DNA of 64,000 bases from contig NZ_CP092431.1 in assembly GCF_022385335.1 (NCBI RefSeq), positions 3,844,001 to 3,908,000 of the forward strand, in the 5' to 3' direction. This document shows, one piece after another, positions 15,041 to 35,573 of this stretch (the stretch's first letter is position 1; each line of letters begins with the position of its first letter). The notes below the pieces were generated by a model. It was not told the DNA's origin. It was given only the letters and a program-made list of their open reading frames with translations, and did not search any database. Made by a program: the position numbers and the translations under genes. The DNA is from Streptomyces deccanensis. Its GTDB lineage: Bacteria > Actinomycetota > Actinomycetes > Streptomycetales > Streptomycetaceae.

Positions 15041-16688
15041 TCACCTCGTCAGCAACTCCTCCCGCCCGCGCGCCCGGTACTCCGTCACCAGCCGCGCCAG
15101 GTCCACCGCCGAGAACTTGCGGTACGCCCACTTCCCCGGCGGGCGCCACCAGACCGGGTCGGCGCAGCGGAAGCCCTCGCGGCGGAGGGTGGCGCGCTGG
15201 ATCTTGTTGGTGGCGGTGACGGGCATGGACCGGACGACCCGTACGAAGCGCGGGGCCATCTTCGTGCCCAGGTCGGGCTGGTCCAGCAGGAACTCGGCGA
15301 AGCGGCAGGGGTCGAAGGTGCCGGCGACGGTCGCCATGACCTGGTCCCCGGCGACCGGATCGGGGACCGCGTACACGGCGACGGCCTCGGCGCCCTCGTA
15401 GCGGGCGAGGATGTTCTCGATGACGGCGGCGGCGAGGTTCTCGCTGTCGACGCGGAGGCGGTCGTCGGTGCGGCCGGCGAAGTAGAGGAAGCCGTCGGTG
15501 TCGCGGTAGAAGAGGTCGCCGGTCCAGTACCAGCCGTCGCGGCGGCGGGCGGCGTCCGCCTCCGGGTTCCGCCAGTAGCCCTCGAAGGGGTTGGGGCCCC
15601 GGTTGACCAACTCTCCTATCGCCTCGGTGCCGTTGAGGAGTCGTCCGTCCTCGTCGAAGGCGGCCGGCGGGCGCTCCTTGCCGGTCTCCGGATCGACCAC
15701 GGCGAGGTCGTCGCCGGGTGCCGCCCGTCCGATCGCGCCGGGTGGCGTCCCGGGCGTGCGCTGGATCGCCGCCCCGCCCTCGGAGGACCCGTACCCCTCC
15801 ACGAGCCGCACCCCGAAGCGTTCCTCGAACGCCGCCGCGTCCACCGCGCCGGCCTCCGTGCCGAAGCCCATGCGCAGCGGGGTGTCGCGGTCGTCGGGGC
15901 GGGGCTCGGTGGCGAGGAGGTACTGCACGGCCCGGCCCACGTAGGTGAAGTACGTGGCCCGGTAGGCCCGTACGTCGTCCAGGAACGCGGAGGCCCGAGA
16001 ACCGGCGGCGCAGGGCGACGCCGGCTCCCGCGACCAGGGCGGGGGCCCAGTCGGCGATGACCGCGTTGCCGTGGAACATCGGCATGCAGACGTAGTGCAC
16101 GTCGTCCCGCCGCACCCCGAAGCGGTCCACCAGGGCCCGCCCCGCCGCCGCGAGCCGCCCCTGGGAGCAGATCGCGGCCTTGGGCGCGCCGGTGGAGCCG
16201 GAGGTGAAGTAGAGCAGGAGGCGGTCGGCGGGGGTGGCCCGGGTGGGGTCGGGCACGGCGCCCGCGTACGGGGCGAGGAGGTCGGCGTACGGCCGGGTGC
16301 CGGTGACCAGGACGCGGACGCCGGGGAGTTCGAGGCCGTCGAGGAGCGGGAGGTGGGCCTCCTCGGTGATCAGCACCCGGCACTCGGTGTGCAGGATGTC
16401 GCGGGCCAGTTCGGGACCGCGCCGGGTGGGGTTGACGCCTACGACGGCCGCGCCCGTGAGGGCCGCCGCGCTCAACCACAAGGGAAATTCCGGGGTGTTG
16501 TCGAGGAGGACACCGAAATGCGGGTGGGCCTCCGGCGGCAGGAGGTCGGCGAGCAGGGCCGCGCGGGCGGCGGCCCCGGCGGCGACCTCGTGGTGGGTCA
16601 GGACCTGTTCCTCGAACCACAGCCCGGGCCGGTGGTCGCCCCACCGGTCGGCGACGAGCTGTGCGACCGTGCGCCTGATGGACTCCAT
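15041..16688 (-). pseudogene. Frameshifted AMP-binding acyl-CoA ligase (FadD-like)
   Basis: Two frames together encode one acyl-CoA/fatty-acid ligase of about 548 residues. The first part (16688 to about 15996) starts MESIRRTVAQLVADRWGD and contains the AMP-binding loop YFTSGSTGAPKAAICS. The second part continues in another frame with TYFTYVGRAVQYLL, MGFGTEAGAVD, EGYGSSEGG, YWTGDLFYRDTDGFLYFAGR and the C-terminal TATNKIQRATLRREG lysine motif. Removing one base from the CCC at 15994-15996 restores a continuous reading frame (RRRFSASAFLDDVRAYRATY). No other damage is visible. It is therefore either a fresh +1 mutation or an assembly or sequencing error. If functional it would activate a fatty or other carboxylic acid with CoA. 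Confidence 0.8.
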
Positions 16689-23090: not shown

Positions 23091-25088
23091 ATGACGTCGA
23101 CGCCGACGGGCGGCCGGCATTACAACGACCCATCCGAAACGACCCGGCTGAAGGTGCCGTCACACCGCACAGGAGCCTTTCGCAAGCTCAAGAAGAACCT
23201 TCCGAGATACGACTACGAGCACTACAGCCGCCTCGCCGGCCCGCTCACCCAGCCCGACCCGACCAAGCCGTACACGGTGCAGTACCGGTCGCTGATCTCG
23301 CAGGAGCCGCACCGCCTCAGGGTCGCCCTGATGCTGGCCGCCGCGCCGCTGCTCTCCCTGGTCCTGCTGGCCTGGCTGCTGCAGCAGGAGCACTGGACCG
23401 AACGCGACTACGTCGAGTACGAGTTCCTGCCCGCCCTCGACATGGTCATGCTGGTCTCGATCGGCCTGATCGAGTTCTTCCGCTGCATGAACGTGCTGTC
23501 GAACGCGCACGCCACCCTGGTCGCCCGCGACCCGGTCCCGGTGGTGCCCGAGACCGGCACCAGAGTCGCCTTCCTCACCTCCTTCGTGCCCGGCAAGGAA
23601 CCGCTGGAGATGGTGACGAAGACCCTGGAGGCCGCGGTGAAGCTCCGTCACCGCGGGCTGCTGCACGTGTGGCTGCTCGACGAGGGCGACGACGCGGACG
23701 TGAAGGCGGTCTGCGCGCGCCTGGGCGTGCACCACTTCTCCCGCAAGGGCATCGCGAAGTGGAACCAGCCCAAGGGCCCGCACCGCGCCAAGACCAAGCA
23801 CGGCAACTACAACGCCTGGCTCGACGCGCACGGCGACGACTACGACTTCTTCGCCTCGGTCGACACCGACCACATCCCGCTGCCCAACTACCTGGAGCGG
23901 ATGCTCGGTTTCTTCCGGGACCCGAACATCGGCTTCGTCATCGGCCCGCAGGTGTACGGCAACTACGACAACTTCGTCACCAAGGCCGCCGAGTCCCAGC
24001 AGTTCCTGTTCCACGCGCTGATCCAGCGCGCCGGCAACAGGTACGGGGCGCCCATGTTCGTCGGCACCTCCAACGCCGTACGCATCAAGGCGCTCAAGCA
24101 GATCGGCGGGCTGTACGACTCGATCACCGAGGACATGGCCACCGGTTTCGAGATCCACCGTCACAAGAACCCGGCGACGGGCAAGAAGTGGCGCTCGGTC
24201 TACACCCCGGACGTGCTCGCGGTCGGTGAGGGGCCGAGCGCCTGGACGGACTTCTTCACCCAGCAGATGCGCTGGTCGCGCGGGACGTACGAGACGATCC
24301 TCACGCAGTACTGGAAGGGCTGGTACTCGCTGCCGCCGACCAAGCTCTTCAACTACACGATGATGATCATCTTCTACCCGATGTCGGCGCTCAACTGGAT
24401 CCTGGCGGCGCTGAGTTGTGCCCTGTTCCTGGGTCTCGGCGCCTCGGGTGTGAACATCGACCCGGTGGTGTGGCTGATGCTCTACGGCAACGCCTCCGCG
24501 CTCCAGATAGGCCTGTACGTCTGGAACCGCCGGCACAACGTCTCCCCGCACGAGCCGGAGGGCTCCGGCGGTGTGGCCGGCATGGTGATGTCCGCGCTCT
24601 CCGCGCCGCTCTACGCCAAGGCGCTGATCGACTCGGCGCTGCGCCGCAAGAGCAAGTTCGTGGTGACGCCCAAGGGTGATTCGGCGAGCCCCGACCGGTG
24701 GTTCGGCACCTTCCGGTACCACTGGTACTTCATCGTCATCTTCGGTGCCTCGATCGCCGCCGGGTTCGTCTTCGGCAACGCGCACCCCGCGATGATCATC
24801 TGGGCCGTCTTCGCCATGATGATCACCGCCCTCCCCATCGTCGCCTGGCGCTACATGCTGCGGCAGGACCGGAAGAAGGCCGCCGCCGCGGCCGCACTGC
24901 AGGGGTCCATGGTGGCGCCGCCCGAGGCGGCTCCCGCACCGTTCGCGCCACCCCACGCACCGCACGCCCCACCCGCGCCCCACGCTCCCCAGCACAAGCC
25001 GAGCTGGGCCGCGTCCGGGTCGGGCGGCGGGGGTAGCGACCAGACCATGCAGATCGCCCTGGGCGGACTTGGGGGACGTAAGGAATGA
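23091..25088 (+). CDS. cslA: Cellulose-synthase-like glycosyltransferase CslA
   Basis: A 665-residue GT2 membrane glycosyltransferase, predicted to polymerise a beta-glucan at hyphal tips. Two membrane segments lie at about 78-98 and 115-130. The catalytic domain has DEGDD (197-201), the metal-binding DTD (258-260), TED (346-348) and the QxxRW motif QQMRW (391-395). More membrane helices follow (about 409-460 and 555-600), then a Pro/Ala/His-rich cytoplasmic tail. This matches CslA of S. coelicolor/S. lividans (SCO2836), which is needed for tip glycan deposition and aerial growth. The stop overlaps glxA by four bases (ATGA), so the two are coupled. Confidence 0.95.
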   Translation: MTSTPTGGRHYNDPSETTRLKVPSHRTGAFRKLKKNLPRYDYEHYSRLAGPLTQPDPTKPYTVQYRSLISQEPHRLRVALMLAAAPLLSLVLLAWLLQQEHWTERDYVEYEFLPALDMVMLVSIGLIEFFRCMNVLSNAHATLVARDPVPVVPETGTRVAFLTSFVPGKEPLEMVTKTLEAAVKLRHRGLLHVWLLDEGDDADVKAVCARLGVHHFSRKGIAKWNQPKGPHRAKTKHGNYNAWLDAHGDDYDFFASVDTDHIPLPNYLERMLGFFRDPNIGFVIGPQVYGNYDNFVTKAAESQQFLFHALIQRAGNRYGAPMFVGTSNAVRIKALKQIGGLYDSITEDMATGFEIHRHKNPATGKKWRSVYTPDVLAVGEGPSAWTDFFTQQMRWSRGTYETILTQYWKGWYSLPPTKLFNYTMMIIFYPMSALNWILAALSCALFLGLGASGVNIDPVVWLMLYGNASALQIGLYVWNRRHNVSPHEPEGSGGVAGMVMSALSAPLYAKALIDSALRRKSKFVVTPKGDSASPDRWFGTFRYHWYFIVIFGASIAAGFVFGNAHPAMIIWAVFAMMITALPIVAWRYMLRQDRKKAAAAAALQGSMVAPPEAAPAPFAPPHAPHAPPAPHAPQHKPSWAASGSGGGGSDQTMQIALGGLGGRKE

Positions 25089-27022
25089 AGGACCGTGCAG
25101 GCCGCCGCCGCGCCCGTCGCCTCGCGATCGGCTCGGCGGTGGTCCTCGCGCTCGCCGGGATGAACGGGCCGTGGGTGTACCGCTTCAGTACCGAGAAGTA
25201 CCACGAGTACAAGATCAACAGACCCGAGTACAAGGCGGACAACGGGCACTGGCAGATCGTGGAGTTCCCGGAGAAGTACCGGCAGAACACCATCCACGCC
25301 GCACTGCTGCACACCGGCAAGATCTTGCTGATCGCGGGCTCGGGGAACGACGCCGAGAACTTCGACAGGAAGAAGTTCGACACCCGCCTCTGGGACCCGG
25401 TCAAGCAGACGATCAAGCGGGTGCCGACCCCGGCCGACCTGTTCTGCACCGGGCACACCCAGCTGTCCAACGGCAATCTGCTGATCGCGGGCGGCACCAA
25501 GCGCTACGAGAAGCTGAAGGGGGATGTCACCAAGGCCGGGGGCCTGATGATCATCCACAACGAGAACCCCGACAAGGGCATGCGACTGAAGGCGGGGACC
25601 AGGTTCGTCGGCAAGGCGAACGGCAAGACGTTCGTCCTCAAGGACACCGTCGAACTCAAGAAGGCCGTCAAGACCTTCGACCCGGACACCGGGAAGTTCA
25701 CCGGCAACAAGCCGGGCATCGCCCGCGCCTACGTCGAGGCCGAGCGCAGCGGCAAACGGTACGAGACGGGGACGGAGGACAACTACAAGGTCGTCGGCCT
25801 GAAGGGCGAGGACGCGCGGAACACGTACGGCATCGCGCAGAAACTCGCCCTCGACAAGAAGGACTTCCAGGGGATCAAGGACGCCTACGAATTCGATCCG
25901 GTCGCCGAGAAGTACATCAAGGTCGACCCGATGAACGAGGCACGCTGGTACCCGACACTGACGACGCTGACGGACGGCACGGTCCTGTCGCTGTCCGGGC
26001 TCGACGAGATCGGACAGCTCGTCCCGGGCAAGAACGAGATCTACGACCCCGAGACGAAGAAGTGGACGTACACCAAGGACGAGCAGCAGTTCCCGACGTA
26101 CCCGGCGATCTCCCTGATGCAGAACGGCAAGTTGTTCTACTCGGGCGCCAACGCGGGGTACGGGCCGGACGACATCGGGCGCGACCCCGGCATCTGGGAC
26201 CTGAAGACGAACAAGTTCACCAAGGTCCCCGGCATGAGCGACAGCAAGCTCCTGGAGACCGCCGGGACCGTGCTGCTGCCCCCGGCGCAGGACGAGACGT
26301 ACATGGTCATCGGCGGGGGCGGGGTCGGTGAGTCGGAGCGGTCCAGCAAGCGGACCCGGGTGATCGATCTGCTGGCCGACCGGCCGCGGTTCGTGGACGG
26401 GCCGCGGCTGGCGAAGGGCACCCGGTACCCGCAGGCCTCGATCCTGCCCGACGACACCGTCCTCATCTCCGGCGGCTCCGAGGACTACCGGGGGCGCGGC
26501 GACTCCAACATCCTCGAAGCGCGGCTGTACGACGCGAGGACGGGCGAGATGCGGAGGGTGGCCGACCCGCTGGTGGGCCGGAACTACCACTCCGGGTCGA
26601 TCCTGCTGCCGGACGGACGGGTCGTGTTCTTCGGGTCGGACTCCCTGTACGCCGACAAGGCCAACACCAAGCCGGGGGAGTTCGAGCAGCGGATCGAGAT
26701 CTACACGCCGCCGTACCTCTTCCAGGACGCCCGGCCCACGTTGACCGGGGAGAAGAAGACGGTCGCGCGGGGCGGGAAGGCGACGTTCGGCACGAGGCAC
26801 GGGTCGTCGATCGCGTCGGCGCGGCTGATCCGGCCGAGTGCGTCGACGCATGTGACCGATGTGGACCAGAAGTCGATCGAGGTGGACTTCGAGGTGACCG
26901 GGGACGAGATCACGGTGACCGTGCCGAAGAACCGGAATCTGGTGCAGTCGGGCTGGTACATGCTGTTCGTGACGGACGACGCGGGGACGCCGAGCGAGGC
27001 TCGGTGGGTGAAGGTCCCCTAG
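25085..27022 (+). CDS. glxA: Copper radical oxidase GlxA (galactose-oxidase-like)
   Basis: A 645-residue membrane-anchored copper radical oxidase. An N-terminal signal anchor lies about residues 12-28. A Kelch-type propeller follows, with Cys121 (LFCTGHTQL), Trp288 and Tyr289 (EARWYPTLTTL). These are the residues that in S. lividans GlxA form the Tyr-Cys cofactor and stacking tryptophan, at the same numbers as I recall them. Copper ligands are likely Tyr501-His502 (GRNYHSGSILL) and His589 (SASTHVTDVD). The C-terminal domain is DUF1929-like. It acts with CslA on the tip glycan and needs copper delivery. A strong terminator follows. Confidence 0.95.
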   Translation: MKDRAGRRRARRLAIGSAVVLALAGMNGPWVYRFSTEKYHEYKINRPEYKADNGHWQIVEFPEKYRQNTIHAALLHTGKILLIAGSGNDAENFDRKKFDTRLWDPVKQTIKRVPTPADLFCTGHTQLSNGNLLIAGGTKRYEKLKGDVTKAGGLMIIHNENPDKGMRLKAGTRFVGKANGKTFVLKDTVELKKAVKTFDPDTGKFTGNKPGIARAYVEAERSGKRYETGTEDNYKVVGLKGEDARNTYGIAQKLALDKKDFQGIKDAYEFDPVAEKYIKVDPMNEARWYPTLTTLTDGTVLSLSGLDEIGQLVPGKNEIYDPETKKWTYTKDEQQFPTYPAISLMQNGKLFYSGANAGYGPDDIGRDPGIWDLKTNKFTKVPGMSDSKLLETAGTVLLPPAQDETYMVIGGGGVGESERSSKRTRVIDLLADRPRFVDGPRLAKGTRYPQASILPDDTVLISGGSEDYRGRGDSNILEARLYDARTGEMRRVADPLVGRNYHSGSILLPDGRVVFFGSDSLYADKANTKPGEFEQRIEIYTPPYLFQDARPTLTGEKKTVARGGKATFGTRHGSSIASARLIRPSASTHVTDVDQKSIEVDFEVTGDEITVTVPKNRNLVQSGWYMLFVTDDAGTPSEARWVKVP

Positions 27023-27086: not shown

Positions 27087-27108
27087 TGTCGGTCGGCGGG
27101 CCTGAGGC

Positions 27109-28059
27109 TCAGCGCGGGGCGTTCAGGGCCTCGGGGGCCCGTTCGCCGGCGAGGGTCTGCAGGACCGCGCGGACGGCGTCCGTCGCCGCCCGCTCCTGGG
27201 CCTCGCGGGTGCTGGCGCCCAGGTGCGGGGTCACCGTCACCTCGTCGAGGGCGAGGAGCGGGGAGTCGGTGCACGGCTCGTCGACGAAGACGTCCAGGGC
27301 CGCGCCGGCGAGGCGGGACTCCCCCAGGGCGGTGTGGAGGGCCGCCTCGTCCACGATGCCGCCGCGGGAGACGTTGGCGAGATAGGCCGTGGGCTTGACC
27401 AGGCGGAGTTCGGCCTCGCCGATCAGGCCCACGGTCTTCGGCGTCCTCGGTACGTGGACGGTGACGAAGTCGGACCGGGAGAGCAGCTCGTCCAGCGGCA
27501 CCGGCTTGATGCCGTGCTGGTCCGCCGTCTCCGCCGTGGCGTAGGGGTCGTGGCCGAGGACCGTCATGTCGAAGGCGGCCATGCGGCGCGCGACCGCCAG
27601 ACCGATCCGGCCGAGCCCGACGATCCCGAGGGTCTTGCCCGCGAGTTCGGTGCCGACATGGGTGGCGCGCCGCCACACACCGGACCTCAGCTCCCGGCCC
27701 GCCGCCTGGATGTCGCGGGCCGCCGCCAGCAACAGCCCGCACGTCAGCTCGGCGGCGCTGACGACGTTGGCGGCCGGGGCGTTGACCACCACGACGCCGG
27801 CCTCGGTGGCGGCGACGACGTCGATGTTGTCGACCCCCACCCCGGCCCGCCCGACGACGGCGAGGTGGGGGGCCGCCGCCAGGACCTCGGCGTCCACGGT
27901 CGTGGCGCTGCGGACGAGGAGCGCGTGGGCCTCGGTCACCGCGCCCAGCAACTGCGCGCGGTCGGCGCCGTCGCAGTGGCGCACCTCGTACCCGGGGCCG
28001 AGGCGCTCCAGGGCGGCCGCCGGCAGGGGGTCGGCGACCAGGACGACACGGGAAGACAT
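27109..28059 (-). CDS. D-3-phosphoglycerate dehydrogenase-like enzyme without regulatory domains
   Basis: A 316-residue NAD-dependent dehydrogenase of the SerA branch of the D-2-hydroxyacid family. The Rossmann loop is GIVGLGRIGLAVARRM. Catalytic residues are Arg in NVSRGGIVDEAAL, Glu in VFVDEPC and His in VTPHLGAST. It ends after the catalytic core; the intervening and ACT domains of housekeeping actinobacterial SerA (about 530 residues) are missing. Last gene of the SbnA/SbnB operon. SbnA uses O-phosphoserine, so a dedicated, feedback-free supply of 3-phosphohydroxypyruvate would make sense (inference). The ATG follows ACGGAG. Confidence 0.85.
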   Translation of the reverse strand: MSSRVVLVADPLPAAALERLGPGYEVRHCDGADRAQLLGAVTEAHALLVRSATTVDAEVLAAAPHLAVVGRAGVGVDNIDVVAATEAGVVVVNAPAANVVSAAELTCGLLLAAARDIQAAGRELRSGVWRRATHVGTELAGKTLGIVGLGRIGLAVARRMAAFDMTVLGHDPYATAETADQHGIKPVPLDELLSRSDFVTVHVPRTPKTVGLIGEAELRLVKPTAYLANVSRGGIVDEAALHTALGESRLAGAALDVFVDEPCTDSPLLALDEVTVTPHLGASTREAQERAATDAVRAVLQTLAGERAPEALNAPR

Positions 28060-28120
28060 CTGAATCTCCGTAGGGGTGGGGGCGGTTGGGCTGTGCCTCG
28101 GGTGGGGGACGAGCCGCGGC

Positions 28121-28756
28121 TCAGCTCTGGACGGCCATCGCGATACCGAAGGCGATCATGACCGTGCCGGCGGTCGCGTCGACGTTGCGGCGGACCGAAC
28201 GGCGCCGCATCCAGGTGCGCAGGCCGTGGGCGCCGAGGCTGATCAGGCCGTACCAGATGACCGCCTCCAGCGCGTTGACCGCGGCCAGCGCGGTGCCCAT
28301 CAGCGCGGGCGAGACACCTTCGGGGATGAACTGCGGGATCGTGGCGCCGTAGAAGACACCGACCTTCGGGTTGGCCAGGTTGTTGAGCATGCCCCGGCCG
28401 AAGGAGCGCCACAGCGAGGCGGCCTCCGGTTCGAGGTCGGCGTCGCCCTCCTTGGCCGCGCCGATGGCCCGCGCCGAGCGCCACAGCCCGATGCCCAGCC
28501 AGACCATGTAGGCGGCGCCGACGATCCGGAACACGGTGTACGCGGTCTCGGAGGCGGCGAGCAGCGCGCCGACGCCGACCGCGATGGCCGCGCCCCACAG
28601 GACGGCGCCGACGCCGACACCGACGCCGGTGATGAACCCGTGGAGCCGGCCGCGCGCGACGGTGTTGCGGATGACCAGCGCGGTGTCCACGCCCGGCATG
28701 ATCACCAGCAGGGCTGACACCAGGGCGAACGAGACCAGTGCCTGGAGGACCGACAC
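28121..28756 (-). CDS. LysE/RhtB family amino-acid exporter
   Basis: A 211-residue inner-membrane exporter. Typical features are the N-terminal MPGVDTALVIRNTVARGR block (the PGP-like family signature), glycine-rich second helix GVGVGVGAVLWG, and NLANPKVGVFYGATIPQF in the middle, with about six helices overall. It should export an amino acid or a small derivative by proton exchange. The GTG start follows CAGGAG and lies two bases after the acyltransferase stop. In this operon it is the likely exit route for the diaminopropionate-derived product. Confidence 0.88.
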   Translation of the reverse strand: MSVLQALVSFALVSALLVIMPGVDTALVIRNTVARGRLHGFITGVGVGVGAVLWGAAIAVGVGALLAASETAYTVFRIVGAAYMVWLGIGLWRSARAIGAAKEGDADLEPEAASLWRSFGRGMLNNLANPKVGVFYGATIPQFIPEGVSPALMGTALAAVNALEAVIWYGLISLGAHGLRTWMRRRSVRRNVDATAGTVMIAFGIAMAVQS

Positions 28757-28758
28757 GT

Positions 28759-29697
28759 CTACACTCCTGTCTTCTCGGCCGTGACCCCGATGATCTCGGC
28801 CAGGGGGATTCCGTCGCGCGTGAGGCCGCGCAGCCAGTTGCGGTAGAAGATCCGTCCGGGGGCCTGCCAGTTCTCAACGGGCGCGGCGGACGGGTCGTCA
28901 CCTGGGAAGTAGTGGGCGGGGAGGGCGATGTCCGCGCCCTTGGCCGCGTCGCGCCGGTACTGCCGCAGCAGGGTGTCGGGGTCGTACTCCGGGTGCCCGG
29001 AGACGTACAGCTCCCGGCCGTCCCGGCTTGCCGCGATGTGCACCCCGGCCTCCGGCGACTCCACCAGGATCCGCAGGTCCTCGGTCTTCTCGAAGTCGGC
29101 GCGGAGGTTTTCGGTGTGGCGCGACTGCGGGACCGCGATCACCGACTCGATGTCCGCCAGCAGCGGGGACGAGGGGTCGGTGAGCCGGTTGGGGAAGTTC
29201 CCGAACAGCTTGGCGGGCAGCTCGTGCTTGGGGATGCCGTACCGGTGGTACAGCGCGGCCTGCGCGCCCCAGCAGACGTACTGGGCGGAGGTGACGTTCT
29301 CCCGCGCCCAGTCCATGATGCCGCGCAGCTCGTCCCAGTACGTGACCTCCTCGAAGGGGAGGAGTTCGACGGCGGCGCCGGTCACGATCAGGGCGTCGAA
29401 CCGACGGTCGGCGACGTCCTCGTGCGTCAGGTAGTGCTCCTTGAGGTACGCCTCGGGCGTGCTCCTGGAGACGTGGTCCCGGGGGCGCAGCAGGGTGACG
29501 CGTACGGGGAGGCCGGCACCGGACAGCAGCCGCAGCACCTGGGTCTCGGTGACCGGCTTGTCCGGCATCAGGTTGAGGAGCGCCAGTTCGACTGCCGGCG
29601 TCGCGGGCACGGCGTCGCGTGGCTCGACGGTGACGGTGATGCCTTCGGCGGCGAGCCGGTCGACGGCGTCGATCGGGGTGGGGACGATGAGGGTCAC
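28759..29697 (-). CDS. MetA-family O-acyltransferase (probably acetyl-CoA type)
   Basis: A 312-residue homoserine O-succinyl/acetyltransferase family enzyme. The nucleophilic cysteine is in YVCWGAQAALYHRYG, and the catalytic Glu/His region is in VSGHPEYDPDTLL. At the acyl-donor specificity position the sequence reads VTGAAVELLPF; in characterised MetA proteins Glu here goes with acetyl-CoA and Gly with succinyl-CoA, so acetyl transfer is predicted. Homologues usually acylate homoserine. In this operon the acceptor could instead be serine or diaminopropionate, which is speculation. The GTG start overlaps the previous stop (GTGA), so it is coupled to the FAD protein gene. Confidence 0.85.
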   Translation of the reverse strand: MTLIVPTPIDAVDRLAAEGITVTVEPRDAVPATPAVELALLNLMPDKPVTETQVLRLLSGAGLPVRVTLLRPRDHVSRSTPEAYLKEHYLTHEDVADRRFDALIVTGAAVELLPFEEVTYWDELRGIMDWARENVTSAQYVCWGAQAALYHRYGIPKHELPAKLFGNFPNRLTDPSSPLLADIESVIAVPQSRHTENLRADFEKTEDLRILVESPEAGVHIAASRDGRELYVSGHPEYDPDTLLRQYRRDAAKGADIALPAHYFPGDDPSAAPVENWQAPGRIFYRNWLRGLTRDGIPLAEIIGVTAEKTGV

Positions 29698-31718
29698 TGT
29701 GCGGGGCTCCTGGTGATCGCGGTCTCGGTGGCGGTGTCGGTCGCGGTCCCGGTCGCTGTCTTCGCCGCGGTGGTGGCGTCGAGTTCGGCGAGTACGGCGG
29801 TGACACACCGGTCGGCGTCCGCCAGCGCGCGGTTGCGGCCGCCGGGCGACGGGACGTAGTGGTTGTAGAAGGTGGCGCCCTCGCAGAGCGGGCCGAGGAC
29901 GCGGACCTTCCGGTCGGGCCGCCCGTCGGCGGCGACGGGATGCTGGTCCGCCGTGATGTCGACGCCCCGGCTGCTGAGGGCTCCCGGACGGTGCCTGCGG
30001 ATACGTCCGCTCGCCAGGAGGTCGGCCAGCAGCGGGCTGCCGGTCGCCTCGACGTCGGGCTGGCCCGAGGTGGCGTACGCAAGCCAGTCCGCCGGGGCCT
30101 CGTAGCCGGTGCCGAGGCGGGTGGAGGAGATCCGCCACACCGTCCCGTCCCACTCGACGCGCGGCGCGGGACCGAAGGGCACGCTGACGATGCCGGCCTC
30201 CAGCAGGGCGAAGAGTTCCTCGTGCCGGTCGAGCTGCGGGCCGGTCACCGACCGGTTGAGCGTGGCGGTGAAGGAGCCGTAGAACTCGTCGTGGGAGTTC
30301 TCGTCCAGGCCGCCGAAGTCGACGGCGTGGCGGACGACGTCGCGCAGGTCGCGCAGGACTTCGAGGCCCGCCTTGGTGGGGCTGCCGCCGAGGCCCAGCC
30401 GCGCCTCGACCAGGTCCGACCGCAGCCGCTCCTCGTACCACTTGCGGTAGGCGTCGGCGGAGTCGAACGCGGCGCTGTCGGGGAAGAGCAGCTCCTGCGG
30501 GTCGAAGTGCCCGAACCGCTCGGCGTGTTCGACGTCCAGGGCGGTCAGCTCGTCGTCCAGAGTGCCCGCGTCCGCCGCCGCGCGCAGCCGCTCCGTCAGG
30601 GTCCGCTCGGCGTCGGCTCCCCCGGCGAGGGCGGCGCCGAGACGGTGGAAGGCGCTGCGCATCTCGGCGCGGATCAGGGGGAGCAGGTCGCCGTGCAGGT
30701 CCAGGGGGCGGTCTCCCCCGGCGGCCCGGAGGCGGTCCAGGGTCTGCGGCGAGAACACCACCGGCCGGTACGGTCCGCCGGTGCGGTTGTCGGCGGGCCG
30801 GGCCCGGAAGGGGATGCCGGTGCGGGAGAACAGCAGGATGCTCGGTTCCCGTCCGCTGGGCAGATAGCGCAGGCCGCCGTCGACGGCCTCGTAGCGGCCG
30901 CCCCGGCCGACGGTGAGCGAGGCGAGGACGTCCATCGCCGACAGGCCGGTGCCGCCGAGGGCCAGGGTCTGGCCGGCGGTGACGTCCGCGAAGGCGTCGG
31001 CGGGCGGGTAGATCTCGTGGATCCGCCGGGACGCTCCCGGCGCCTGCGGGTCGGGGGCGGCCGGTGGGGTGTGACCGGTGGTGAGGAAGACCGTGTCCAC
31101 CCGCAGGGTCTCGCCGGTGTCCAGGGTGATCAGCCGCGAGTCGTCCGGGCCGGTGGACAGGCTGGTCGCCGTGGCGCGGTGGAACCGTATCTCGACGTTG
31201 CCGGGGACCCGGTCGAGGAGGCGCCGCAGGAACCAGCGGAGGTACTCGCCGAGCACCCGCCGGGGCAGGAAGTCGTCCGGGCGCACGGGACGGCCCTCGG
31301 CGCCGAGGGTGTGACCGTCGTCGGCCACCTTCAGGCCACGGGCTGTCACCCACTCGTAGAGGTTGGGGCCGCGGTCACCGACGGCCGCGCCCACCGTCGC
31401 CTCCTCGGGGAAGAGGCTCACCTGCGCGCAGACGGTGTTGAGCAGCAGGTGGTCGGGCTGGTCCACGGCGTGGATGCCGACGCCGGAGCCGTCGGGGTCG
31501 ACCACCTCGACCACGAGCCGCCGCCCCGCCCGCTCCGGCGACGCGGCGTGGGTGACGAGACGTTCGAGCACGCCGATGCCACGCGAGCCGAGCCCGACGA
31601 TGCCCACGGTGCCGGCGACGGGAGTCCCCTGGACGGAGGAGTCGGGACTCTCCTGGACGGAGGAGTCGGGCTGAACTGCTGCTGCTTGCAAGGCAGTTGT
31701 CCGGGGAGAAGTCGTCAC
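29694..31718 (-). CDS. Large FAD/NAD(P)-binding protein (NAD_binding_9 type)
   Basis: A 674-residue protein with an N-terminal dinucleotide-binding fold (VGIVGLGSRGIGVLERL), an internal VFLTTGHTPP and a second glycine loop LALGGTGLSAMDVLASL. This is the pattern of the FAD-NAD(P)-binding (PF13454-like) family that occurs beside SbnA/SbnB genes. A long helical C-terminal half follows. The tail is Thr/Ala-rich with TGTATDTATETA. The chemistry is unknown; an oxidation or N-hydroxylation of the amino-acid product is possible. The GTG start at 31718 overlaps the SbnB stop as GTGA. A second GTG at 31721 is in frame. Confidence 0.8.
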   Translation of the reverse strand: MTTSPRTTALQAAAVQPDSSVQESPDSSVQGTPVAGTVGIVGLGSRGIGVLERLVTHAASPERAGRRLVVEVVDPDGSGVGIHAVDQPDHLLLNTVCAQVSLFPEEATVGAAVGDRGPNLYEWVTARGLKVADDGHTLGAEGRPVRPDDFLPRRVLGEYLRWFLRRLLDRVPGNVEIRFHRATATSLSTGPDDSRLITLDTGETLRVDTVFLTTGHTPPAAPDPQAPGASRRIHEIYPPADAFADVTAGQTLALGGTGLSAMDVLASLTVGRGGRYEAVDGGLRYLPSGREPSILLFSRTGIPFRARPADNRTGGPYRPVVFSPQTLDRLRAAGGDRPLDLHGDLLPLIRAEMRSAFHRLGAALAGGADAERTLTERLRAAADAGTLDDELTALDVEHAERFGHFDPQELLFPDSAAFDSADAYRKWYEERLRSDLVEARLGLGGSPTKAGLEVLRDLRDVVRHAVDFGGLDENSHDEFYGSFTATLNRSVTGPQLDRHEELFALLEAGIVSVPFGPAPRVEWDGTVWRISSTRLGTGYEAPADWLAYATSGQPDVEATGSPLLADLLASGRIRRHRPGALSSRGVDITADQHPVAADGRPDRKVRVLGPLCEGATFYNHYVPSPGGRNRALADADRCVTAVLAELDATTAAKTATGTATDTATETAITRSPAQ

Positions 31719-32722
31719 CACCGCTCCGTCTCCCCGAAGAAGTCGGCGATGGAGGTGACACGGCCGGACCCGGCGGCCACGCGGTGCACTTCGAGACCCA
31801 CGGCGAGGTCCAGGACGCCCAGGCCGAACGGGGAGAAGATGACCGGCTTGTCCGCGCCGACCGCGGCCTCCCCGTTGATCACCTCGGCGAGGGTGCCGGT
31901 GATGAAGTCCCGGTTGCCGTACTTCTGTTCGGCCAGATGCGGCGAGGTGTCGGCCTTCAGGCAGTGGTCGACGTCGTCCAGCACGTTGTAGGAGTCGGCG
32001 ATGATCTCGGGGCCGATGTCCCGCAGGGAGATGTTGAGGACGATCTGCCCCGGGGCGAACGCGTCGGTGTCCAGGACGTACGGCTCCCCGGCCGTGGTGG
32101 CGAAGACGACCAGGTCGGCGCCGGACACGGCCTCCTGGAGGGTGCCGGCATAGGACGCCGGGTATCCCAGGCGCTCGGTGGCGTGGGTCGCCAGCGCGCT
32201 GCCGTACTCCTGGCTCAGGTCGTGCACCGCGACCTGTTCGAACGACCACTGCTCGGCGTGGAAGAACTCCAGGATGTTGCGGGCGATGATGCCCGCGCCC
32301 ACGACCGCCAGCCGGCCGTCTCTGCGCTCCCCCGCGAGGACGTTCGCCGCGAGGACGGCCGACGCGGCCGTGCGGGCGGCGCTGATCTGCGAGGCCTCCA
32401 GGAGCGCGAAGGGGTAGCCGGTCTCGGCGTCGTTCAGGACGAGCGTGGCCGAGGCCCGGGGTATGCCGCGCTGGATGTTGGCCGGGAAGCTCGCGATCCA
32501 CTTGATGCCGGCGACCTCGCGCTCACCGTCGAGGTAGGCGGGCAGGGCGATGATCCGGTCCCCCGGCTTCTCGGGGAAGCGGAGGAAGTAGCTGTCCGGG
32601 TTCACGGAACGCCCGGCGTGGTGGGCGAGATAGGTGTCGCGCACGACCCGGACGATGTCCTGACGGCTGTCCCGGACGATGTCCTGGACCGTACGGCCGC
32701 CGACGACATCAAATTCGAACAT
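31715..32722 (-). CDS. sbnB: SbnB-like N-(2-amino-2-carboxyethyl)-glutamate dehydrogenase
   Basis: A 335-residue member of the ornithine cyclodeaminase/mu-crystallin family, matching the SbnB branch. SbnB oxidatively hydrolyses N-(2-amino-2-carboxyethyl)-L-glutamate to L-2,3-diaminopropionate and 2-oxoglutarate using NAD. Visible blocks are YFLRFPEKPGDRIIALPAYL, AGIKWIASFPANIQRG, the Rossmann loop LAVVGAGIIARNILEFFH, and IVLNISLRDIGPEII. The ATG follows GAAGGAG. It lies 149 bases downstream of sbnA, and its stop overlaps the next gene. Assignment to SbnB rather than cyclodeaminase rests on pairing with the cysteine-synthase-like SbnA. Confidence 0.9.
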   Translation of the reverse strand: MFEFDVVGGRTVQDIVRDSRQDIVRVVRDTYLAHHAGRSVNPDSYFLRFPEKPGDRIIALPAYLDGEREVAGIKWIASFPANIQRGIPRASATLVLNDAETGYPFALLEASQISAARTAASAVLAANVLAGERRDGRLAVVGAGIIARNILEFFHAEQWSFEQVAVHDLSQEYGSALATHATERLGYPASYAGTLQEAVSGADLVVFATTAGEPYVLDTDAFAPGQIVLNISLRDIGPEIIADSYNVLDDVDHCLKADTSPHLAEQKYGNRDFITGTLAEVINGEAAVGADKPVIFSPFGLGVLDLAVGLEVHRVAAGSGRVTSIADFFGETERW

Positions 32723-32871
32723 GGTGACTCCTTCAACTGCTGCTGGACTGGTCGCGCGATGGGGCGATGGGGCGATGGCACGCTGACGCGATGTCGTGAT
32801 GGGGCCCGGCGCGATGAGAGGTGAGAGGCGAGACGGTGAGGCGCCGGAGGGGTCGTTCGGTGAGGGAGCTG

Positions 32872-33819
32872 TCAGTCGTCGGCGGTGCCGAAGCGCTCGT
32901 CGACCCAGGCGTCGTCGTAGATCGTGTCGAGGTAGCGCTCGCCGAGGTCCGGGCTGATGGCGACCACCGACGCGCCCCGGGGGATCGCGTGGCGCCGGGC
33001 CGCGACGGCGGCGAGCACCGAACCGGTGGAGCCGCCGGCGAGGACGCCCCGCCGGGTCGCCAGCCGCCGGCACATGCGTACCGCCTCGACCTCCGGCACC
33101 ATGACGACCTCGTCGACGAGCCCGTCACGGAAGATCTCCGGACGCCGGCTCGTGCCCAGACCGGGGATGTGCCGGCGGGCGGGCGGCGAGTCGAAGGTGA
33201 CCGAGCCGACCGAGTCGACGGCGACGATCCGGGTCCCGGGCGAGTACTCGCGGAAGTACTCGGCGCAGCCCATGAGCGTGCCGGTGGTGCCGGCGCCCAC
33301 GAAGAGCAGGTCGACCCCGCGCTCCTTGAGCAGGGCCGGGGCGGTGCGCCGGTAATGGGCCCGCGGGTTGGCCTCGTTGGCGTACTGGTTGGGCCACACC
33401 AGCTCGGGGTCCTCGCGCAGCCGGGCGTGGATGTGGTCGATACGGGACTGCAGGAAGCCGCCGTTGGCGTCCCTGCGGTCGACGACGACGACCTCGGCGC
33501 CGTACGCCCGCATCAGACGGAGGCTCATGGACGCGGTGTTGGGGTCAGCGACACAGGTGAACCGGTAGCCGCGGGCCGCGCAGACGGAGCTCAGCGCGAT
33601 ACCGAGGTTGCCGGAGGACGACTCGATGACCCGGCCGCCGGGCTTGAGCACGCCACGGCTCTCCAGGTCCTCCAGCAGGCCCACGGCCGCCTTCAGTTTG
33701 ATGGATCCCGCGGGGTTGAGTCCTTCGATCTTGAGCGTGAGATCGACGTCGCCGATGAAACCGCTCAGGTCGAGAAAGAGATCGTCGAGTACCAGGTCAT
33801 ACGCATGACGAAAGATCAT
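32872..33819 (-). CDS. sbnA: SbnA-like O-phosphoserine:glutamate beta-replacement PLP enzyme
   Basis: A 315-residue PLP enzyme of the cysteine synthase family. The PLP lysine is probably Lys41 in NPAGSIKLKAA; the substrate loop is ESSSGNLGIALS; the phosphate-binding loop is VGAGTTGTLMG; the late loop is AGGSTGSVLAA. Unlike ordinary cysteine synthases it reads SSGNLG rather than TSGNTG, as SbnA-type enzymes do. SbnA joins O-phosphoserine with glutamate to give the precursor that SbnB cleaves to L-2,3-diaminopropionate. It is the first gene of the six-gene operon. The ATG at 33819 follows GAAGGTG; upstream in-frame sequence lacks conservation. Confidence 0.9.
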   Translation of the reverse strand: MIFRHAYDLVLDDLFLDLSGFIGDVDLTLKIEGLNPAGSIKLKAAVGLLEDLESRGVLKPGGRVIESSSGNLGIALSSVCAARGYRFTCVADPNTASMSLRLMRAYGAEVVVVDRRDANGGFLQSRIDHIHARLREDPELVWPNQYANEANPRAHYRRTAPALLKERGVDLLFVGAGTTGTLMGCAEYFREYSPGTRIVAVDSVGSVTFDSPPARRHIPGLGTSRRPEIFRDGLVDEVVMVPEVEAVRMCRRLATRRGVLAGGSTGSVLAAVAARRHAIPRGASVVAISPDLGERYLDTIYDDAWVDERFGTADD

Positions 33820-34550
33820 CGAGCACCTTCGGTAACGGGTCGAACGTGACGGAGGTGGTACGAGTGCGTGCGACGGCGGCCTCCGGCGGCACGACCACGA
33901 CACCCTGGACGCAGTGTCGGCGCGGGTGTGCCCATGAACCATTTTTGGACATGGGCATGCCAAAACTGCGCGCATGGCCGTCGGAGGACGTGACGCGGAG
34001 GTGATCCGGGGTTCGCCGGCGGAGGACGGTGCCGCCCGCGCCACCGGACCGGAGGTCAGAAGGGCGCGGCCTCAGCCGTCGAAGGCGCCCGGCGAACCGG
34101 AGGGCGGCCCGGTGCGACAGGGCCGGAGGTGCGCCGGACATCGCCCGGACGGACAGGAACCGGTCCGGGCGGCGACGCGAGGGCCTTCCCGGACGAGATG
34201 AGTCGCCGACATCGAGCGGTGCGTCAGAGGGACGTCACCGCGACGGAGACGGAGCTCCGCCCACCCTGTCGGCAGGGCGACGGCACGTGTTAAGTGATCG
34301 TCCGTCTGCTCGCGGACCGAGGCCCCCGACGGCCCGGAACGGCATTCCCTCGGCGCGGCGACCGCACGCGTGACATGCACGCCTTTCCCCTTCCCCCGTT
34401 GGCGGCAACCGTGTTGCCCTTGCGTCACGGACCGGCGCTTCGACGCCCATCCGTGATCTTGAAGAAACTTTAGCCCACGATCTGTGACGGGTCTATGACA
34501 GCAGCGTTAAGGGCTGACGTAGGTAACCCTAAGTTCGTGGACGGCCATCG
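33820..34550. other. Intergenic region upstream of the diaminopropionate operon
   Basis: About 730 bases with no convincing gene. Frames present are Arg/Pro-rich shadows without ribosome sites. It contains the operator-like dyad at 33929-33957. The stretch 34440-34550, containing TTGAAGAAACTTTAG, is locally AT-richer. No pathway regulator is encoded here. Confidence 0.5.
33929..33957 (-). promoter_or_regulatory. Inverted-repeat candidate operator upstream of sbnA
   Basis: TGCCCATG (33929-33936) and CATGGGCA (33950-33957) are perfect 8-bp arms, and the centre holds a smaller CCA-TTTT-TGG dyad. It lies about 110 bases upstream of the sbnA start in otherwise unremarkable DNA. It does not match the iron box or the Zur box of Streptomyces as I know them. 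The cognate regulator is unknown. Confidence 0.5.
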
Positions 34551-35573
34551 TCATCCGGACGCTTTGGCCAGATCAAGGGCGTATTCCGGCCACCACTCCC
34601 CCGCCTTCGGCCCGCCTTTGCACTCCCCGTCGGACTCCCCCGGGCGCTTGACCCAGAGATACGCGTCCACGAGCGGATCCGCCGTCTTCGTCGTCGGGGA
34701 CTCCCCGAGGGCCCGCCCCGGCGGATTGCACCAGCGCTCGTCCTCGTCGCCCTCGTCCCAGGGGCCGTTGCCGTTGCGGCTGGTGTCGATGACGAAGGGC
34801 TTGTCCCCGATCTTCGAGGAGAGCTGCTTGCCGTACTCGATGGAGTCCTCGGTGGTGTAGAAGTTCGAGACGTTGACGGCGAAGCCGTCGGCCTGTTCGA
34901 CGCCCGCCCACTTGAGGGGGTCGTAGATCTCCTCGGGGTCGCCCCAGCCCGCGTTGCCCGCGTCGAGGTACACCTTCGTGTTCTTCAGCGCGCCCAGCGT
35001 CTCGATCGCGCCCTTCAGCAGGTCGTACCGCTCCGCGTGGAACTCCTCCGGCGTACAGCCGTCCACCACGTGGAGCACCGCGTCGGGCTCCAGGACGATG
35101 GTGGCCGGACGGTCCCCGATGCCCCGGGCCACGCCGTCGATCCACGCCCGGTACGCGTCGCCGTCGGCCGCGCCGCCGCCGGAGTACTGGCCGCAGTCGC
35201 GGTGCGGGATGTTGTAGAGGACGAGGACGGCGTCCCGGTCGGCCTTCTCCGCGGCCTCGGTGAAGCCCTCGGCCTCCCGCTCCGGGTTCTCCGGGCCGAT
35301 CCACTCACCGGTCGGCTGCTCGGCGATCCTGCGGATCAGCTTGGCGTCCTCGTCCTTGCCGGCCTTCTCGTAGGCGGCCACCTGCGCCGCCGCGTTCCCC
35401 TTCGGATTGACCCAGAACGGGTCCGTGCCGTTCGGCTGTTGGGTGATGCCGGCGCCGGAGTCCCGGCCCTTGTCCCCGTCACCGTCGTCCCCCCCGGAAC
35501 AGCCGGCGAGCAGTAACGCGACCCCCACCACCGCCACGGACGCCCGAACCCCGGCCCCCCTACTGCCGTACAT
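34551..35573 (-). CDS. GH6 endoglucanase-like lipoprotein (possible CslZ counterpart)
   Basis: A 340-residue glycoside hydrolase family 6 protein, predicted to cut beta-1,4-glucan. The N-terminus is a lipoprotein signal with lipobox LLAGC (Cys25) and an acidic linker. Conserved GH6 blocks are VLVLYNIPHRDCGQYS, TIVLEPDAVLHV (Asp as general acid), VYLDAGNAGWG, NVSNFYTTED and the C-terminal DAYLWVKRPGESDGEC. The ATG follows GGGGGAG. In S. coelicolor the GH6 gene cslZ is, as I recall, next to glxA; here a GH6 gene lies 7.5 kb away beyond the diaminopropionate operon. It may be the displaced counterpart. Confidence 0.85.
   Translation of the reverse strand: MYGSRGAGVRASVAVVGVALLLAGCSGGDDGDGDKGRDSGAGITQQPNGTDPFWVNPKGNAAAQVAAYEKAGKDEDAKLIRRIAEQPTGEWIGPENPEREAEGFTEAAEKADRDAVLVLYNIPHRDCGQYSGGGAADGDAYRAWIDGVARGIGDRPATIVLEPDAVLHVVDGCTPEEFHAERYDLLKGAIETLGALKNTKVYLDAGNAGWGDPEEIYDPLKWAGVEQADGFAVNVSNFYTTEDSIEYGKQLSSKIGDKPFVIDTSRNGNGPWDEGDEDERWCNPPGRALGESPTTKTADPLVDAYLWVKRPGESDGECKGGPKAGEWWPEYALDLAKASG

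Follow-up and report, generated by a model that had tools for sequence, protein, structure and literature searches.

The 64,000-nucleotide stretch of the Streptomyces deccanensis genome analysed here (NZ_CP092431.1, positions 3,844,001 to 3,908,000; hereafter the window) contains a six-gene cassette which, in our reading, makes L-2,3-diaminopropionate (Dap), N-oxidises it and exports a capped N-hydroxy amino acid, likely an antimetabolite. We assign this reading a probability of about one half. Comparison with curated families and related loci shows a Dap synthase, a member of a flavin N-hydroxylase family with an altered substrate pocket, and a linkage of this flavoprotein clade with 2,3-diamino-acid genes. 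At the level of sequence, this supports the original prediction of a stand-alone Dap pathway that is probably fed by an extra phosphoglycerate dehydrogenase (PGDH) and ends in a modified, exported amino acid; among the modifications it had considered, 'oxidised' can be narrowed to N-oxidation, since the flavoprotein is a relative of an L-aspartate N-hydroxylase. Each enzyme of the cassette belongs to a known family.

Dap synthase and a flavoprotein clade linked to 2,3-diamino-acid genes

The cassette genes are intact in an open reading frame check and all lie on the minus strand, from 33819 down to 27109 of the window, in the order sbnA-sbnB-fad-metA-lysE-pgdh. The first two are adjacent and encode the halves of a Dap synthase: SbnA, the pyridoxal phosphate-dependent first half, joins O-phosphoserine to glutamate, and SbnB, the oxidative second half, releases Dap. 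SbnA (315 residues, 32872–33819) scores 398.7 bits against TIGR03945 (curated NCBIfam cut-off 349.95) and SbnB (335 residues, 31715–32722) 419.5 bits against TIGR03944 (cut-off 326.9), so that both homologues claimed from the sequence alone exceed their equivalog cut-offs. Their best relatives in the PDB are the SbnA entries 5d84–5d87 (E 1e-66) and, for SbnB, 4m54.

The third gene, fad (29694–31718, 674 residues, GTG start, PF13454), had been described as encoding a large FAD/NAD(P)-binding protein. It does encode a flavoprotein, but not a generic one: its sole PDB match, over residues 37–643, is 8cp2/8cp5 (E 6e-62), and 8CP2 is the CreE-type L-aspartate N-hydroxylase of Streptomyces sp. V2 (PMC10404684). 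In that enzyme, aspartate is held by Arg13, Arg276, Arg416, Arg577 and Asn413, and an N413E variant still oxidises NADPH but no longer hydroxylates aspartate (PMC10404684). In the printed alignment, R13, N62, R266, R409, R412 and R416 of 8CP2 are kept in Fad as R46, N94, R307, R456, R459 and R463, the alignment around Arg276 is ambiguous, and three residues are replaced, namely Asn413 by D460, Arg577 by S624 and Trp51 by H83. Because the aspartate-binding Asn413 and Arg577 are replaced, we file the protein as a relative of the L-aspartate N-hydroxylases rather than as one of them.

The genomic context of this protein was compared in two samples. Among 200 Streptomycetaceae genomes, that of S. 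deccanensis included, 173 contain flavoprotein-family matches, and 11 to 20 kb were read around 20 high-ranking matches (not strictly the top 20; the window itself was excluded, and one match is a paralog from the same genome). The five closest relatives adjoin sbnB, four of them also sbnA, whereas neither gene was found in the other 15 stretches, the paralog loci; one of these (L051) has an ArgH-like neighbour with 29% identity, as a nitrosuccinate lyase might show. A scan of GTDB contigs with an alignment of six sequences yielded 113 relatives, of which 80, in 78 loci, were kept. Together with the five closest relatives, these make 83 loci, 81 of them distinct (L040 equals L103 and L041 equals L098; these duplicates are counted once in the 81 loci and twice in the 84 clade sequences used below). 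In 69 of the 81 distinct loci, sbnA and sbnB lie within 6.5 kb of the fad relative. Ten further loci carry 2,3-diaminobutyrate-type genes, seven of them with a lyase, a kinase and an SbnA-like gene and three (L084, L085 and L087) with part of this set; the remaining two have sbnB alone (L041/L098) or sbnA and sbnB as broken pieces (L114). Next to Dap or diaminobutyrate-type genes, the clade occurs in Streptomyces and other Actinomycetota as well as in Pseudomonas, Burkholderia, Aeromonas, Photobacterium and metagenome bins named Methylocystis, Paracoccus and Reyranella.

The pocket replacements follow the same division. Position 460 is Asp or Glu in all 84 clade members (Asn in 14 of the 15 paralogs, Ala in one), position 624 is Ser or Thr in 84/84 (Arg in 13 paralogs, two being gapped) and position 83 is His in 84/84 (Trp in 14 paralogs, His in one). 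The two peptide patterns used in the GTDB scan cover Fad residues of about 86–94 and 616–623, where identity is partly built in; residues 83, 460 and 624 lie outside them. When the 30 best family matches in the 200 Streptomycetaceae genomes were sorted by this His/acid/Ser signature, seven had it and 23 did not. Six of the seven carriers, S. deccanensis included, adjoin sbnB. The short flank of the seventh (L033) lacks both sbnA and sbnB, but the larger stretch read around it (L197) holds a lyase, a kinase, an SbnA-like gene and a methyltransferase gene directly before fad. No sbnA or sbnB was found in the flanks of about 1.5 kb around the 23 matches without the signature. As a sequence rule for diamino-acid linkage, the pocket signature has therefore passed one prediction test.

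The altered pocket, with an acid in place of an amide and one arginine lost, would fit a substrate in which an ammonium group replaces a carboxylate. If the Dap carboxylate occupied the site of the aspartate side-chain carboxylate, the beta-nitrogen would lie where the alpha-nitrogen of aspartate is oxidised; in such a binding mode, the acid near the Asn413 position could hold the alpha-ammonium group, and the arginine for a second carboxylate would be superfluous. From this orientation we predict beta-N-hydroxylation. From linkage and pocket together, we conclude that a 2,3-diamino acid is the likely substrate which this enzyme oxidises on nitrogen, with 3-(hydroxyamino)-L-alanine as the probable product of the cassette enzyme. 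This provides a residue-level ground for assigning a function to a clade that is named only 'FAD-NAD(P)-binding' (PF13454) in databases.

In a quick, midpoint-rooted tree without bootstrap, the 84 sequences form one group opposite the 15 paralogs (Shimodaira–Hasegawa-like approximate likelihood-ratio support 99). A nine-member diaminobutyrate subclade is nested within the sbnAB-linked clade, sister (support 100) to the group formed by the cassette and operons with an LctP-like permease. L109, also of the diaminobutyrate type, groups elsewhere with an sbnAB-linked row; it is among the sequences whose long branches were flagged.

L089 serves as the example of the diaminobutyrate-type loci. It encodes an ArgH-like lyase (252.7 bits, below the cut-off of 279.5) and a GHMP-type kinase; an SbnA-like domain, which at 248 bits also stays under its cut-off, precedes an ATP-grasp domain resembling L-amino-acid ligases. 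Because the kinase of these clusters has only a generic GHMP assignment, we base the diaminobutyrate reading on the combination of lyase, SbnA-like enzyme and kinase, and on a review according to which 2,3-diaminobutyrate seemingly arises from threonine via DabABC, with DabA resembling cysteine synthases (PMC4052310; compare PMC12471526). No paper on a threonine-kinase route was found in the open-licence PMC literature. An alanyl-tRNA-editing-like protein is encoded in both clusters tested for it (L089 and L197) and is not among the six cassette proteins; its presence would be expected if the product threatened tRNA charging. The clusters L083–L090, L092, L109 and L197 each combine a fad relative with part or all of a set made up of an ArgH-like lyase, a GHMP kinase, an SbnA-like enzyme, an amino-acid-ligase-like domain, a methyltransferase, an AzlC-type exporter and this editing-like protein, and possibly make an N-oxidised 2,3-diaminobutyrate dipeptide with self-protection.

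Layout, copies and mobility of the cassette

The operon had been called tightly overlapping. Such packing is confined to its middle, where sbnB/fad and fad/metA overlap by 4 bases each and metA and lysE are 2 bases apart; sbnA and sbnB are separated by 149 bases, and lysE and pgdh by 61. The metA-like gene (28759–29697, 312 residues, GTG start) encodes a member of the homoserine O-acyltransferase family with 327.8 bits against PF04204, and the exporter gene (28121–28756, 211 residues) a LysE/RhtB-family protein with 117.9 bits against PF01810 (gathering score 25.6), in agreement with the families originally proposed for both. The best NCBIfam match of the exporter is TIGR00949 for homoserine/threonine efflux (124 bits, below the cut-off of 183.95). 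The last gene, pgdh (27109–28059, 316 residues, PF02826/PF00389), was correctly recognised as a PGDH without regulatory part: its product reaches 398.4 bits against TIGR01327 over positions 2–313 of 525, which places it in the catalytic part of that family below the full-length cut-off of 454, and it stops short of the C-terminal regulatory region. Over 312 residues it shares 59% identity with the catalytic portion of the main SerA-type enzyme of the genome, which is encoded at 7.20 Mb and covers positions 2–524 of the model.

All six genes occur in the same order in three further Streptomyces loci. In the window, the cassette lies between glxA (25085–27022) and a GH6 gene (34551–35573). In S. 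caniscabiei (L082), it sits at the same chromosomal site; in S. capoamus (L073) and Streptomyces sp. NRRL S-1022 (L074), it sits at another site, next to photolyase-like and MeaB-like genes (named by eye). Similarity to the two other-site copies extends from about 34502 to 27106 and comprises the six genes and about 680 bases upstream, beginning at 34502/34500 for L073 and L074 despite the different site. Because this upstream stretch (33820–34502, a presumed leader or promoter region) is similar where the cassette sits elsewhere, we regard it as travelling with the genes, so that the whole cassette spans 7.4 kb (27106–34502). Of 36 genomes with a glxA match, four were examined at this site (L185, L186, L187 and L188), and the cassette is absent from all four. 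The site is empty in three, glxA and the GH6 gene being 101, 84 and 72 bases apart in L185, L186 and L188 (these gene ends, like all gene calls on the fetched loci, come from a simple script, so that starts are approximate). The comparison indicates that the six genes travel together as one cassette, a mobile unit. A chance cluster was ruled out by the six-gene copies in other Streptomyces and by the linkage of fad to sbnA and sbnB. In the fourth genome, L187, a different large gene (1403 residues) occupies the gap between glxA and the GH6 gene, which may therefore be an insertion hot spot.

Within the conserved upstream stretch, a possible short leader frame lies near 34380. At gathering scores, two tRNAs were the only Rfam matches in the window, with none in 33820–34502, and a promoter and terminator scan gave a result no better than that for shuffled sequence. 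About 10 kb from the cassette, an AMP-binding match is split over two frames at 15572–16646.

The genome holds one other sbnB, at 8.08 Mb (C1:8066000-8085900, L183), with its own sbnA, which is 51% identical to that of the cassette. This pair belongs to a cluster of the non-ribosomal peptide synthetase (NRPS) type, with an NRPS adenylation-carrier protein, a TauD-type oxygenase and an AidB-like dehydrogenase as neighbours, and likely serves a separate Dap-containing product. The objection that a synthetase cluster for a known Dap product in the same genome might use the operon does not hold as worded, since the 8.08 Mb cluster has its own sbnAB. We rejected feeding of this second cluster by the cassette for the same reason; supply in trans may occur.

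In other loci, the genes that follow fad vary; they were assigned by likeness to a few family-tested examples. The metA-lysE-pgdh set follows fad in this cassette and its three copies. Eight actinomycete loci (L075–L081 and L119) have the row sbnA-sbnB-fad followed by an LctP-like permease gene without an acyl- or carbamoyltransferase gene in between, and five of them also have pgdh (L077 ends soon after the permease gene); LctP-like permeases follow in nine proteobacterial loci as well. A cystathionine-gamma-synthase-like enzyme and a BenE-type permease follow in 17 fetched loci (16 distinct), and a carbamoyltransferase-like gene in L043, L149, L091 and L095. Leaving aside the three closest copies, a same-strand PGDH-like gene follows in six distinct loci (L040 = L103, L076, L079, L080, L081 and L119), and L143 has a weak match of 37%. 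In 17 loci, all from Pseudomonas, sbnA and sbnB form one open frame (domains tested in L140), and a LysE-family gene follows; two Burkholderia loci also have LysE-family genes. These recurring LysE-family genes are only distantly alike (25–29% where any match). The one-frame loci (L121, L125, L129, L132–L138, L140, L141, L143–L146 and L148) have their fused gene between two different flavin N-hydroxylases. The expectation that the accessory genes are linked to sbnAB elsewhere is thus borne out for fad, across two phyla, and for the PGDH-like gene, extends to lysE only through distant relatives, and for the MetA-family gene goes no further than the three closest copies, a mixed result overall.

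Proposed pathway and its alternatives

Based on these comparisons, we propose a pathway for which we infer the nitrogen attacked, single as opposed to repeated oxidation, the acyl acceptor and the biological role. The PGDH would draw 3-phosphoglycerate towards O-phosphoserine with the help of the host's own transaminase, and SbnA and SbnB would turn O-phosphoserine and glutamate into Dap. The CreE-family flavoenzyme would then hydroxylate the beta-nitrogen to give 3-(hydroxyamino)-L-alanine; the MetA-family enzyme would acylate the hydroxylamine, probably with an acetyl group, either at its oxygen or, giving a hydroxamate, at its nitrogen; and the acylated product would leave the cell through the RhtB-like carrier. 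3-(Hydroxyamino)-L-alanine can be seen as homoserine whose gamma-carbon has been exchanged for nitrogen, and this aza-homoserine character of the predicted product would, as a chemical argument, explain why a MetA-family acyltransferase and an RhtB-like exporter stand in the cassette. The MetA-family acyltransferase, the RhtB-like carrier and the cystathionine-synthase-like enzyme of the sister clusters each come from a family with homoserine or its esters as substrates. We favour a likely role as an amino-acid antimetabolite because the operons are free-standing and have exporters, and because an alanyl-tRNA-editing-like protein accompanies the relatives L089 and L197.

The metA-like gene is unusual in its own right. 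Its product has the MetA catalytic residues C142, H235 and E237, as well as R249 and E111, the latter a mark of acetyl-CoA users in the family. Among 109 relatives (matches ranked 12–120 of a search that scored 7999 candidates), 97 columns show at least 95% invariance, and in 29 of these the commonest residue of its group is a different one (two ties included). MetA-family genes are present in 4 of the 200 Streptomycetaceae genomes, and in three of these, S. deccanensis included, the gene adjoins an N-hydroxylase gene and diamino-acid synthesis genes. In the genomes G075 and G118, a transaminase gene and an N-hydroxylase gene lie immediately before a MetA-family gene whose product shares 31% identity with that of the cassette, and an NRPS gene is close by; in G075, the first two encode a diaminobutyrate transaminase above the TIGR00709 cut-off and a PF13434 protein, and in G118 they were assigned by likeness only. 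The loci L069 and L070 show a row of N-hydroxylase, diaminobutyrate transaminase, MetA-family gene, MFS-like carrier and NRPS, in which the MetA-family enzyme apparently belongs to a hydroxamate-type pathway. Primary methionine synthesis was rejected as the reason for the metA-like gene, as the family is absent from 196 of the 200 genomes.

Several observations weigh against the proposed pathway and its generality. The GTDB scan used two peptide patterns of Fad itself, so that its loci are not an unbiased sample, and the 30-match signature test, although less prone to this bias, is small. In 26 Pseudomonas and two Burkholderia loci, the sbnA-sbnB-fad trio comes after a second N-hydroxylase gene (PF13434 in L140, the one tested), which may leave two candidates for the oxidation there. 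The MetA-like protein stays below the NCBIfam cut-offs for acetyl (321.3 versus 460.5 bits) and succinyl transfer (287.5 versus 495 bits), and its nearest relative with a visible context outside the cassette group, a 62% identical protein in G096 (L068), shares its stretch, at a contig end, with an aspartokinase gene, which fits true homoserine as the acceptor. In such a case, the product of the MetA-like enzyme would be plain O-acylhomoserine, destined for methionine or used as another building block, and the remaining enzymes would make an N-oxidised Dap, either separately or for joining to it. The catalytic residues, the lack of any full-length MetX match in the genome, where the cassette gene is the only MetA-family match, and three cystathionine-synthase-like genes elsewhere in it (41–45% identical to the L040 enzyme) are compatible with this alternative; with the family missing from nearly all Streptomycetaceae sampled and so many near-invariant columns changed, we regard it as quite unlikely. 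The oxidation level is a further point, because the aspartate enzyme oxidises three times: the product could be a nitroso, oxime or nitro compound, above all in the eight LctP-permease operons, which have no acyltransferase. Full oxidation of the Dap nitrogen would give 3-nitro-L-alanine, an aspartate isostere that might be exported as an antimetabolite or nitrite donor, with a different role for the MetA-like protein. These eight operons and the successive oxidation to nitrosuccinate by the aspartate relative (PMC10404684) favour such a product, whereas the acyltransferase here and the carbamoyltransferase-like gene of four other loci need a hydroxyl or amine rather than a nitro group, and no nitrosuccinate-lyase-type family is found among the six proteins; we consider it unlikely.

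N-hydroxylation followed by acylation is also the usual route to hydroxamates, and with an exporter present the cassette might supply and export a metal chelator built on acetylated N-hydroxy-Dap. However, none of the six proteins is a synthetase, the nearest gene for an NRPS-independent siderophore (NIS) synthetase is about 76 kb away, and no iron-box match with up to three mismatches was found in the window. A siderophore operon was rejected on the synthetase and iron-box results, and we consider a chelator very unlikely. Finally, given its kinship, the flavoenzyme might still act on L-aspartate and deliver nitrosuccinate, with nitrite then joined to Dap, as in one alanosine proposal; an alanosine cluster has a CreE/CreD pair, which is one proposed nitrogen source (PMC11705231). 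The residues equivalent to Asn413 and Arg577 are replaced in all 84 clade members, exchange of the former for glutamate in the aspartate enzyme abolishes aspartate hydroxylation (PMC10404684), and a PF00206 lyase is missing from the six proteins. On the pocket residues and the missing lyase we rejected a nitrosuccinate/alanosine pathway, and action on aspartate appears highly improbable.

Beyond the cassette, we hypothesise, tentatively and with slightly less than even chances, that a widespread and undescribed pathway class makes free N-oxygenated 2,3-diamino acids. A CreE-family enzyme would have exchanged its substrate aspartate for Dap or 2,3-diaminobutyrate, and the resulting aza-homoserine-type antimetabolites would then be acylated by the MetA family, carbamoylated, processed by a cystathionine-synthase-like enzyme, ligated or just exported. 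If true, bacteria make free N-oxidised diamino acids recurrently, a type of product that NRPS-centred mining would miss. Several tailoring enzymes would go with it, as would a substrate rule that can be tested, namely Asp or Glu at the Asn413 position.

Comparison with known systems

The closest known enzyme is the CreE/FzmM-type L-aspartate N-hydroxylase (8CP2), with which Fad shares its family over most of its length and several arginines. The nitrosuccinate lyase partner of that enzyme belongs to the PF00206 superfamily. The cassette differs from the aspartate–nitrosuccinate (ANS) pathway in the replacement of Asn413, Arg577 and Trp51, in its 2,3-diamino-acid neighbours and in the absence of a PF00206-type lyase among its six proteins. 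Alanosine clusters also hold SbnA/SbnB-type genes. The L-alanosine cluster (aln/ala) resembles our proposal in its Dap precursor and in a proposed N3-hydroxylation of Dap; the enzyme held responsible in that cluster is a flavoenzyme resembling acyl-CoA dehydrogenases, which acts on carrier-bound Dap (PMC11705231, PMC7347517), and neither that family nor a carrier family is among the six cassette proteins.

Linked sbnA/sbnB homologues are reported for the staphyloferrin B, zwittermicin, viomycin and dapdiamide loci (PMC3179956). In contrast to these, the cassette has no synthetase and instead carries N-hydroxylase, MetA-like and LysE-like genes. It is not a staphyloferrin B-type locus: the genome has six NIS-synthetase matches, none of them in the window, as had been noted from the sequence. 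Likewise, no paper on a system with this gene set was found in the open-licence PMC literature, in keeping with the original prediction. The nearest listed case is PSPTO_2960 of Pseudomonas syringae pv. tomato DC3000, whose product is given as unknown in Table 4 of PMC3179956. The 17 Pseudomonas loci with a one-frame sbnA-sbnB adjoin a fad relative, and by analogy PSPTO_2960 likely belongs with them; these loci differ from the cassette in their second N-hydroxylase and in having no MetA-family match. If the proposed pathway class is real, it also gives a reading for the sbnA-sbnB fusions of Pseudomonas.

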